Below, in pieces: positions 12,913 through 15,189 of a stretch of DNA of 48,483 bases. This DNA is from an uncultured Eubacteriales bacterium (GTDB taxonomy: Bacteria; Bacillota; Clostridia; Christensenellales; Aristaeellaceae): positions 1-48,483 of the forward strand of contig OMZY01000020.1 of the NCBI GenBank assembly GCA_900315675.1. The letters are read 5' to 3'. Positions within the stretch are counted from its first letter, which is position 1, and every line of letters begins with the position of its first letter. Under the pieces are notes generated by a model. That model worked only from the letters and a program-made list of their open reading frames with translations. It was not told where the DNA came from and ran no database searches. A program made the translations under genes and the position numbers.

Positions 12913-13338
12913 TCAGATTTTCAGACTTTCATCTGACAGCGTCCGGATGCCATGGGCATTCAGAAGCTCCTCGGCGGTTTTCACATCATTGACCCGGATG
13001 ACCACATAGGCTTCTTCCGGACCGGAACCGGTGAAGGCATACATATACTCGATATTGATATTGGCTTCATTGAGGACGGCCAGGATGGGATAGAGGGCGC
13101 CGCTGCGGTCACTCATCTGGGCGGCCAGTACTTCCGTTTTGGAATAGAGATACTTTTCACCCAGGAGTTTGCAGACAGCATCTGTATCGGAAACGATGAT
13201 GCGCAGAATGCCAAAGTCATTGGCTTCTGAAATACTCATGGCTCGGATATTGATTCCTGCTTCGGAAATGGCCTGAACAGCTTCAATCAAGGCGCCGGGC
13301 TGGTTCATCAGAAAGACGGATAATTGCGTAATAGCCAT
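12913..13338 (-). CDS. ACT-domain amino-acid-binding protein
   Basis: 141 aa from ATG 13338, with GGAGGAAATT directly upstream. It carries two tandem ACT domains: residues 1-70 (AITQLSVFLMNQPGALIEAV, INIRAMSI) and 71-141 (VLAAQMSDRSGALYPILAVL, INIEYMYAF). Stand-alone ACT-ACT proteins of this type are commonly encoded next to phenylacetate-CoA ligase and are thought to sense aromatic amino acids. Here paaK lies about 190 nt upstream on the same strand, fitting that pairing. Heptamers and a REP-like palindrome separate the two. A 9-bp inverted repeat (TGAGGCAAA/TTTGCCTCA, about 12840-12880) downstream may be a weak terminator. Confidence 0.88.
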   Translation of the reverse strand: MAITQLSVFLMNQPGALIEAVQAISEAGINIRAMSISEANDFGILRIIVSDTDAVCKLLGEKYLYSKTEVLAAQMSDRSGALYPILAVLNEANINIEYMYAFTGSGPEEAYVVIRVNDVKTAEELLNAHGIRTLSDESLKI

Positions 13339-13348
13339 AATTTCCTCC

Positions 13349-13374
13349 AATTCAGAATTCATAATTCAGAATTA
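13349..13374. repeat. Heptamer repeat block
   Basis: AATTCAG/AATTCAT/AATTCAG/AATTA units lie upstream of the ACT gene. Confidence 0.65.
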
Positions 13375-14931: not shown

Positions 14932-14969
14932 AAAAAAACACCGCCTTTTGTTCATTCCAAAAGGCGGTG
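14932..14969 (-). terminator. Leader terminator of paaK (attenuator 3:4 stem)
   Basis: On the minus strand CACCGCCTTTTG (14969-14958) and CAAAAGGCGGTG (14950-14939) form a perfect 12-bp stem with loop GAATGAA, followed by seven T residues (14938-14932). It is intrinsic and lies about 100 nt upstream of the paaK start, between leader peptide and gene. Confidence 0.9.
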
Positions 14970-15011
14970 GATTCAAAGCGCTCTGTGCGTCTGATTAATC
15001 CATCGCTGACC
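14968..15011 (-). promoter_or_regulatory. Antiterminator stem of the paaK leader
   Basis: Minus strand GCGATGGATT (15006-14997, ending inside the leader ORF stop region) pairs with AATCCACCGC (14973-14964): nine pairs and one A.C mismatch. It uses the 5' arm of the terminator, so the two are mutually exclusive. CCATC (15029-15025, just before the Phe codons) can pair with GATGG (15004-15000) as the 1:2 stem. GGTCAGCGATGG (15011-15000) also pairs over 12 bp, with one G.U, with CCGTCGCTGACC (14901-14890) beyond the terminator. Confidence 0.7.
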
Positions 15012-15045
15012 TGCTAAAGAAGAAGATGGCTGCGAATGATTTCAT
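14995..15045 (-). CDS. Phenylalanine-rich leader peptide of paaK
   Basis: 16-codon ORF MKSFAAIFFFSRSAMD. AAAGGA (15061-15056) lies 10 nt upstream of ATG 15045-15043. Four of 16 residues are Phe, three of them consecutive (TTC TTC TTT, 15024-15016). Compare the Phe-run leader peptides of enterobacterial pheA and pheST, which control transcription by ribosome stalling. Stalling on the Phe codons would leave the region from about 15003 onward free to form the antiterminator; translating to the stop at 14997-14995 would mask it and let the terminator form. The peptide itself probably has no function. Confidence 0.8.
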   Translation of the reverse strand: MKSFAAIFFFSRSAMD

Positions 15046-15090
15046 TGCTGAAATGTCCTTTCACAAAAATGTTCTGTTACCATCAAAGTG

Positions 15091-15120
15091 ACTATATTCC
15101 TCAGGAGGGACAATTGTCAA
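15091..15120 (-). promoter_or_regulatory. Promoter of the paaK leader
   Basis: Minus strand TTGACA (15120-15115), 18-nt spacer, TATAGT (15096-15091). The start near 15084 gives a leader of about 250 nt containing the Phe peptide and terminator. Confidence 0.75.
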
Positions 15121-15160: not shown

Positions 15161-15189
15161 TTGACATAAAATAGCACGAATGATATATT
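15161..15189 (+). promoter_or_regulatory. Promoter of the DegV gene
   Basis: TTGACA (15161-15166), 17-nt spacer, TATATT (15184-15189); it is back to back with the paaK promoter. Confidence 0.8.

Follow-up and report, generated by a model that had tools for sequence, protein, structure and literature searches.

A phenylalanine-codon leader with the layout of an attenuator precedes paaK, pheA and aroB in gut and rumen Clostridia

The DNA analysed here, hereafter the window, comprises the 48,483 nucleotides (nt) of contig OMZY01000020.1 from an uncultured Eubacteriales bacterium. Its minus strand carries paaK, a gene for a PaaK-family ligase, preceded by a leader whose short open reading frame (ORF) holds a run of phenylalanine codons and followed by a gene for an ACT domain pair protein; the DegV gene on the other side of the leader is divergent (Table 1). 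At the level of sequence, the leader has the layout of a leader-peptide attenuator, with a promoter, a Shine-Dalgarno-like site, a short ORF and an intrinsic terminator, and its antiterminator and terminator share one strand and are mutually exclusive. An earlier note on this DNA had listed the promoter, the 16-codon ORF with its Shine-Dalgarno site, the antiterminator and the 12-bp terminator with seven T residues ahead of paaK, and all of these lie where it had put them. It had also described the antiterminator as overlapping both the stop region of the leader and the 5' arm of the terminator, and this is indeed the arrangement: the antiterminator 5' arm, GCGATGGATT, spans the final three codons of the leader and the first base of its stop codon. 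Between this arm and its partner, AATCCACCGC, nine of the ten pairs form, the remaining position being a single A.C mismatch that is absent from the note's account of the antiterminator.

No other ATG ORF of 8-30 codons, on either strand of the window, has three successive phenylalanine codons (FFF) as the leader ORF does. Folded alone, the terminator reaches -21.1 kcal/mol (z -5.8; equalled by 0 of 200 shuffles) and the antiterminator -15.7 kcal/mol (z -4.6; equalled by 1 of 200). In folds of 75 and 149 nt of leader, the optimum holds the terminator and not the full antiterminator, which fits a switch that is off by default. As to a 1:2 pause hairpin ahead of the antiterminator, such as enterobacterial phe attenuators have, the 149-nt fold, made of one sequence, shows a weak hairpin that pairs into the 5' arm. 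A scan of the window against Rfam returned no family at gathering score, T-box RF00230 included, in agreement with the claim that no T-box is present here.

Table 1. Features of the leader and of the genes downstream of it, in window coordinates
Feature	Coordinates	Strand	Basis
Promoter TTGACA-18-TATAGT	15091..15120	-	11 of 12 consensus letters
-35 hexamer TTGACA	15120-15115	-	
-10 hexamer TATAGT (spacer 18 nt)	15096-15091	-	
Shine-Dalgarno-like AAAGGA, ahead of leader ORF	15056..15061	-	Sequence reading
Leader ORF MKSFAAIFFFSRSAMD*, 16 codons	14995..15045	-	Sequence and conservation in the genus
Putative regulatory Phe codons TTC TTC TTT	15016..15024	-	Codon conservation and distance to the arm
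Antiterminator 5' arm GCGATGGATT	14997..15006	-	Pairing kept across 38 elements and covariation tests
Inner hairpin within the antiterminator loop (CGC...GCG)	14974..14993	-	Folding
Antiterminator 3' arm AATCCACCGC, sharing bases with the terminator 5' arm	14964..14973	-	Pairing
Intrinsic terminator hairpin, 12-bp stem	14939..14969	-	Folding
Terminator T-run, 7 T	14932..14938	-	Sequence reading
paaK: PaaK-family phenylacetate/arylacetate-CoA ligase, 434 aa	13530..14834	-	Gene predicted to be regulated
ACT domain pair protein, 3' of paaK	12913..13362	-	PF19571 71.3 bits, PF01842 53.7 bits

PaaK was searched in 150 relatives, 116 of which gave a match, and conservation was counted in 26 same-genus loci (L001 and L004-L028; about 86% identity or more) taken from the 30 best-matching ones; a partial PaaK match in genome G037 stands outside this count, and L006, identical to L005, was excluded from alignment sets A1 and A2. 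The leader, both arms and the terminator are kept in 21 of the 26 loci, and all 21 of these class-A paaK loci, as we call those with this element, have TTGACA and a loose match to the -10 hexamer ahead of the leader. Purine-rich stretches 5' of the leader ATG are seen by eye in the relatives. Across 20 distinct leaders the first and third codons of the run (codons -6 and -4) are phenylalanine in every one, the middle codon is phenylalanine in 17 and alanine in three, and the remainder of the peptide drifts. Conservation of the Phe codons and stems in close relatives was one of the grounds on which the earlier note had chosen to stand or fall, and it held. The short inner hairpin folds in each of the 21 genus leaders. 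The arms and terminator are near-invariant within the genus, and covariation of the main stem therefore cannot be judged inside it.

The strongest evidence on function comes from searches that were blind to the genes. A covariance model (R1), built from the paaK leaders alone, was applied to 297 genomes of the order with no knowledge of their genes. At E<=0.01 it returned 10 places, of which five lie before paaK in sampled members of the genus, four lie directly before prephenate dehydratase (pheA) and one is apparently due to chance. The pheA places are in G044, whose gene encodes a chorismate mutase/prephenate dehydratase, and in three members of family f16. At E<0.01 the same model found 26 places over 41 genomes of the genus; 19 precede paaK, three pheA and two aroB (3-dehydroquinate synthase), one more lies at a contig end and one is antisense to a paaK element; most of the genus matches at E 0.01-1 are likewise antisense to known elements. 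Within f16 the result was uniform, all 10 places at E<=0.01 in 20 genomes standing before a PF00800 (prephenate dehydratase) gene by Pfam (L221 and nine others). Both aroB genes and the pheA genes of G034 and G044 were confirmed by Pfam or NCBIfam, and those of G014 and G019 were identified by a PF00800 search. Two weak R1 matches, L224 (E 0.0078) and L259 (E 0.077), were put down to chance on inspection. A plain pattern search of 45 genus genomes recovered the same elements, plus unrelated matches; by this search the paaK element is the only class-A element of the window genome, and no leader stands directly before the pheA gene of that genome (L260).

Taken together, these searches yield a set of 38 elements, from which L238 is omitted (its leader reads F-A-F, and its contig ends before any gene is visible). 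Throughout the set, the codon run encodes an amino acid made by the genes that would be regulated. The paaK leaders carry FFF or FAF; the pheA leaders of f16 carry FFF and once FIF, and that of G034 carries FFF; leaders heading pheA and then aroB read YFYFY (G044), YYYFY (G014) or YYYF (G019); and those of aroB alone read YYYF (G004) or YYF (G030). The placing of the run is just as regular. Between the end of the last aromatic codon and the start of the 5' arm lie 6, 9 or 10 nt in 37 of the 38 elements (9 nt in the window), the exception being L022, which has an extra Phe codon beside the arm, and the stop codon begins 6-12 nt past the start of the arm in 35 of the 38. With the textbook value for the ribosome footprint, a ribosome stalled on the run would leave the arm free and one at the stop codon would cover it. 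In f16 the sequence AGCGATGTG is shared but its reading frame is not: four leaders translate it as SDV* and six as AM* or AMC, whilst the run stays in frame. What selection maintains thus seems to be the RNA arm together with the aromatic codons, and not the tail of the peptide.

The antiterminator is kept across the whole set. Pairs 1-3 and 5-8 form in 38 of 38 elements and pair 9 in 35; pair 7 is G-C in 28, U-G in seven and U-A in three, and pair 8 is A-U in 28 and G-C in the other 10. Pair 4 (window positions 15003 and 14967) is the A.C mismatch in all 38, in two families, and never G-C or A-U; the simplest guess is that the antiterminator is thereby kept weaker than the terminator. When covariation was counted on the 32 distinct arm pairs among the 38, pairs 7-10 were formed in 117 of 128 cells. 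Shuffling the partners over all elements gave a mean of 83.7, with 0 of 2000 shuffles reaching 117, and shuffling within clades gave a mean of 107.7, with 1 of 2000 reaching it; neither kind of shuffle removes the relatedness among elements. Sliding the partner arm cuts the count to 30-55 cells.

From these sequences we propose, as very probable, that the leader is a ribosome-mediated attenuator of transcription, that it responds to the charging of tRNA-Phe, and that the paaK under its control is biosynthetic, serving to make phenylalanine from phenylacetate. Transcription would begin about 40 nt upstream of the 16-codon leader ORF. With charged tRNA-Phe in plentiful supply, the ribosome would pass the Phe codons and come to rest at the stop codon, where the antiterminator 5' arm ends; by covering this arm, it would leave the 3' arm free, so that the terminator could form and paaK stay off. 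With charged tRNA-Phe scarce, the ribosome would stall on FFF, the last codon of which ends short of the arm by the distance given above; the 5' arm would then be free to pair with AATCCACCGC, the terminator would be blocked, and paaK would be read. The product would activate phenylacetate, an indolepyruvate:ferredoxin-type oxidoreductase (IOR) would carboxylate it reductively, and transamination would give phenylalanine. Attenuation by tRNA-Phe charging had been the proposal of the earlier note, and it appears the best reading of an RNA that also stands, as the gene-blind searches found, before pheA and aroB. What the ribosome does, how the leader responds to phenylalanine, what PaaK acts on and which way the flux runs are what we infer here.

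The leader can also be compared with what stands before paaK genes in other lineages. Out of 596 loci, 80 named paaK loci were retained, and their upstream regions were classed by regular expressions on 500 nt (188 nt for L128): three are class A, six carry a second type of leader (class B), 11 a T-box motif, 35 have an iorB-like tail directly upstream, and 25 are others. Class B is a different and unrelated Phe leader before paaK, an example being MNNFNFFSFTFSFTGSDSKVNLLC* in L063. Over its six sequences, 94.4% of cells are paired in the 15-pair antiterminator, where one pair shows double changes (a level that 10 of 500 shuffles reach), and 98.3% in the 10-pair terminator, where three pairs do (5 of 500 shuffles). 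A class-B model (R2) gave 12 places at E<=0.01 over 41 genomes: nine before paaK (several of these evidently belong to the training set), one where a contig ends, one before a gene for a sodium:solute symporter and one before a DAHP synthase gene. The leader of this last, MRQQFTIADLYYYYLYFTP*, is a class-B relative with a run of Tyr codons. At the symporter locus (L340, G388:C55; PF00474) the leader is class-B-like and contains codons for Phe, Trp and Tyr, and the gene product is a candidate importer of an aromatic acid or amino acid. In other genera, T-boxes stand before paaK: Rfam confirms all 11 motif loci and adds L036 and L040, with 12 of the 13 above gathering score (L040 is below it), and by eye the specifier is UUC (Phe) in 13 of 13; L122 has GUA in place of GAA.

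Class A, class B and the UUC T-boxes all stand on paaK, and several devices of the kind that would sense tRNA-Phe thus converge on this one gene. The sharing of the class-A element with pheA and aroB, together with the UUC T-boxes elsewhere, much strengthens the biosynthetic reading of paaK. The earlier note had proposed that PaaK serves phenylalanine biosynthesis and not degradation, and the same two lines of evidence favour it, with prephenate dehydratase (PDT) making PaaK a probable second or salvage route. A broader proposal, which we consider likely on balance, is that gut and rumen Clostridia possess a family of attenuators for aromatic amino acid genes that share a single RNA layout and the retained A.C mismatch and have swappable codons, and that several independent RNA inventions have converged on paaK because phenylalanine synthesis from phenylacetate is a regulated main-line route in these bacteria.

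Several side observations touch on these devices. The paaK gene of L031 (G068:C10) has a leader rich in Phe and Tyr, MEVRFYAYFYFYFFGFFANRTQRKPALA*, that resembles neither class A nor class B and is followed, by eye, by a GC-rich hairpin-like stretch and a T-run; it is possibly a third attenuator class on paaK. In the window genome itself (L002, G000:C53), a T-box with the specifier UGG (Trp) stands before a TrpX-like gene for an ABC substrate-binding protein (NF041285 218 bits, below the cut-off of 390); the gene just before this T-box, close to iorA, encodes a second PaaK-like ligase. T-boxes that by eye read UAC (Tyr) precede AMP-binding ligases in L148 (G150) and L139 (G068), Pfam having been run on L148; these ligases resemble the one that precedes iorA in the window's genus, and there are hints here of a tyrosine arm of the arylacetate route. 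T-boxes reading UAC, again by eye, accompany a sodium:solute symporter in L158, L159 and L142 (G002, G000:C53 and G044; PF00474 tested for L159), a candidate tyrosine-regulated importer in the window's genus.

As for the enzyme, PaaK has the domains AMP-binding_C_2 and PF14535/PF00501, and its closest solved chains (4r1l, 2y4o and 2y27) are all phenylacetate-CoA ligases; on these two grounds we place it in the PaaK family. The partner that the proposed route would need is widespread, the IOR alpha subunit scoring above cut-off in 41 of 45 genus genomes, and in the window's genus iorA often lies behind an AMP-ligase gene. That rumen bacteria make phenylalanine from phenylacetate is attributed to Allison 1965 in a passage of PMC7356843.

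Not everything sits easily with a phenylalanine-sensing attenuator of a biosynthetic paaK, and the results that weigh against it deserve to be set out together. As regards distribution, five of the 26 same-genus paaK loci have no leader (L014, L015, L021, L026 and L027); the element is directly upstream in just 3 of 40 pheA (PDT) regions of the genus, G044 being a fourth case through the order search; the arm motif is upstream in 3 of 30 aroB loci (L360, L366 and L369, the last heading pheA and then aroB in G014); and 25 of the 80 named paaK loci have neither a recognised device nor an iorB-like tail upstream. For iorA, which was expected to be under the same control, a leader or T-box motif is absent from all 33 regions taken upstream of the gene (up to 420 nt each), operon heads further upstream not having been scanned separately. 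As regards the leader, three paaK leaders carry F-A-F and not FFF, and synonymous to non-synonymous changes stand at 8:14 in the ORF frame against 5:17 in each other frame, which is weakly better. The antiterminator pairs 9-11 taken alone form in 58 of 96 cells (slid versions, 18-51), so that covariation rests mainly on pairs 7-8, and the changes at these two separate the two families and may amount to few events. The earlier note had looked to compensatory changes in the stems, and these are seen in part: the antiterminator arms covary over the 38 elements, whereas the pair counts of the inner hairpin (MAFFT alignment) do not rise above shuffles and give no covariation signal.

The specifiers and the enzyme also bring points of this kind. 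In Rfam's register, with one base between GAA and the codon, some of the paaK T-boxes would read UCC or UCA. We rejected this serine register because the T-boxes of pheS (TIGR00468) read GAA-G-UUC and the TrpX-like one reads GAA-UGG without a spacer, so that both registers occur, and UUC was chosen because it is the sole codon common to all 13. Against TIGR02155, PaaK reaches 524 bits, short of the equivalog cut-off of 646.3, and the profile therefore does not fix its exact substrate. PDT is found in 38 of 45 genus genomes and in 13 of 13 high-quality ones; the genus can make phenylalanine from prephenate, and PaaK would accordingly be a second or salvage route, induced on starvation.

Could these findings be explained otherwise? 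An ordinary terminator with a chance ORF and no regulation at all is scarcely credible, and largely refuted already: terminator-like sites are common (the surrounding 6 kb has 14, where shuffled sequence averages 6.3), but this one has its own promoter, faces a divergent DegV gene upstream, is kept with invariant Phe codons in those 21 of 26 loci, has arms that covary, and was found before pheA and aroB with no knowledge of the genes. It is very unlikely that the peptide acts in the ribosome exit tunnel, sensing phenylacetate or phenylalanine much as TnaC senses tryptophan, and not tRNA-Phe charging. A short leader ORF with its stop codon at the arm would suit such a device, and some stalling peptides do act at a stop codon; yet this peptide drifts outside its aromatic codons, and in f16 even its frame changes past the run, Tyr codons occupy the same place in aroB leaders, and the UUC T-boxes on paaK elsewhere point to tRNA charging.

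Two further possibilities accept the attenuator and dispute what it is for. One is that it senses tyrosine as much as phenylalanine, and hence general aromatic starvation. Codon -10 of the paaK leaders lends this some colour (Tyr 13, Phe 5, Leu 2; n=20), as do the Tyr runs in the pheA-aroB and aroB leaders; however, the run adjacent to the arm has no Tyr in the paaK leaders, its outer codons being always Phe and its middle one Phe or Ala, and the paaK T-boxes read UUC, which leaves the idea decidedly unlikely. The other is that the attenuator is real and senses phenylalanine, and that PaaK is catabolic or fermentative (phenylalanine to phenylacetate) or a general arylacetate ligase, the control serving another purpose. 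We think this unlikely. The same RNA precedes pheA and aroB, and control by starvation, whether through a leader peptide or a T-box, is carried by biosynthetic genes. The score against TIGR02155 does speak for it, and so does the oxidative use of IOR, which in Bacteroides thetaiotaomicron takes part in converting phenylalanine to phenylacetate, according to passages of PMC13285125. The same passages also point the opposite way: they argue that a ligase of the AMP-forming type favours the making of acyl-CoA, and that IOR paired with one may serve the synthesis of aromatic amino acids in Bacteroides.

The neighbouring genes add a few details. The ACT-pair gene is possibly transcribed as one unit with paaK; it may also own a promoter, given the promoter-like TCGACA-17-TATAAT, with TG ahead of the -10 hexamer, that lies at the end of paaK (13552-13524, minus strand). 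A strong promoter-like TTGACA-17-TATATT for DegV (15161-15189, plus strand) adjoins the leader promoter in divergent orientation, with about 40 bp separating their -35 hexamers.

If our reading of the leader as a tRNA-Phe-responsive attenuator is true, it would mark paaK as biosynthetic and provide a genetic handle on the making of phenylalanine from phenylacetate by rumen anaerobes; the broader proposal above would name the gene, and the switch, behind that synthesis as reported for rumen bacteria in the 1960s. It also cautions against labelling the paaK of an anaerobe as a degradation gene. Two unrelated Phe/Tyr leader classes now stand before aromatic amino acid genes in Clostridia, and on paaK they occupy the place where relatives use a T-box: a natural experiment in the swapping of sensing systems. 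Since one layout carries Phe codons before paaK and pheA and Tyr/Phe codons before aroB, the codon swap makes the sensing model directly testable.

In the open-access literature we found no description of the genes and control of phenylalanine synthesis from phenylacetate in rumen Clostridia, nor of this RNA family, host group and target, subscription papers lying outside the search; the main text of PMC2494555 makes no mention of paaK or phenylacetate. The mechanism itself would be of a known kind, probably working like the classical phe attenuator, in an RNA that matches no Rfam family at gathering level. According to PMC2965389 (Naville and Gautheret 2010), amino-acid-specific leader-peptide attenuators were known just in Proteobacteria and Actinobacteria until His leader peptides were described in 2010 before hisS*/hisZ in bacilli whose relatives carry a T-box. 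Our leader resembles these in being an ordinary leader-peptide attenuator that takes the place of the relatives' T-box, and differs from them in its amino acids (phenylalanine/tyrosine), in its host group (Clostridia), in its several targets and in the presence of two unrelated RNA classes on paaK. Another Firmicute leader-peptide attenuator, the leucine-rich peptide of Staphylococcus aureus, reported since then (PMC5794164), concerns branched-chain amino acids, and ours phenylalanine.

The T-box RF00230 with a Phe specifier, found on paaK of other Clostridia (13 loci) and not in the window, likewise senses tRNA-Phe charging. A T-box does so by binding the uncharged tRNA directly. For PaaK and IOR we predict the same chemistry as in the arylacetate pathway of methanogens, the steps of which are textbook knowledge, and in the rumen synthesis of phenylalanine from phenylacetate. 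A characterised Phe attenuator is mentioned in PMC3766115. The leader is set apart from the pheL family through Rfam (no families at gathering score), with no direct comparison to pheL sequences made. The closest parallel in kind is with the pheA (PheL) and pheST attenuators of enterobacteria, in which a short Phe-rich leader ORF and a mutually exclusive antiterminator and terminator control phenylalanine genes, much as we predict here. Unlike these, our leader belongs to another phylum, has paaK as a putative target as well as pheA and aroB, overlaps its antiterminator 5' arm with its own end and keeps an A.C mismatch conserved within the antiterminator.

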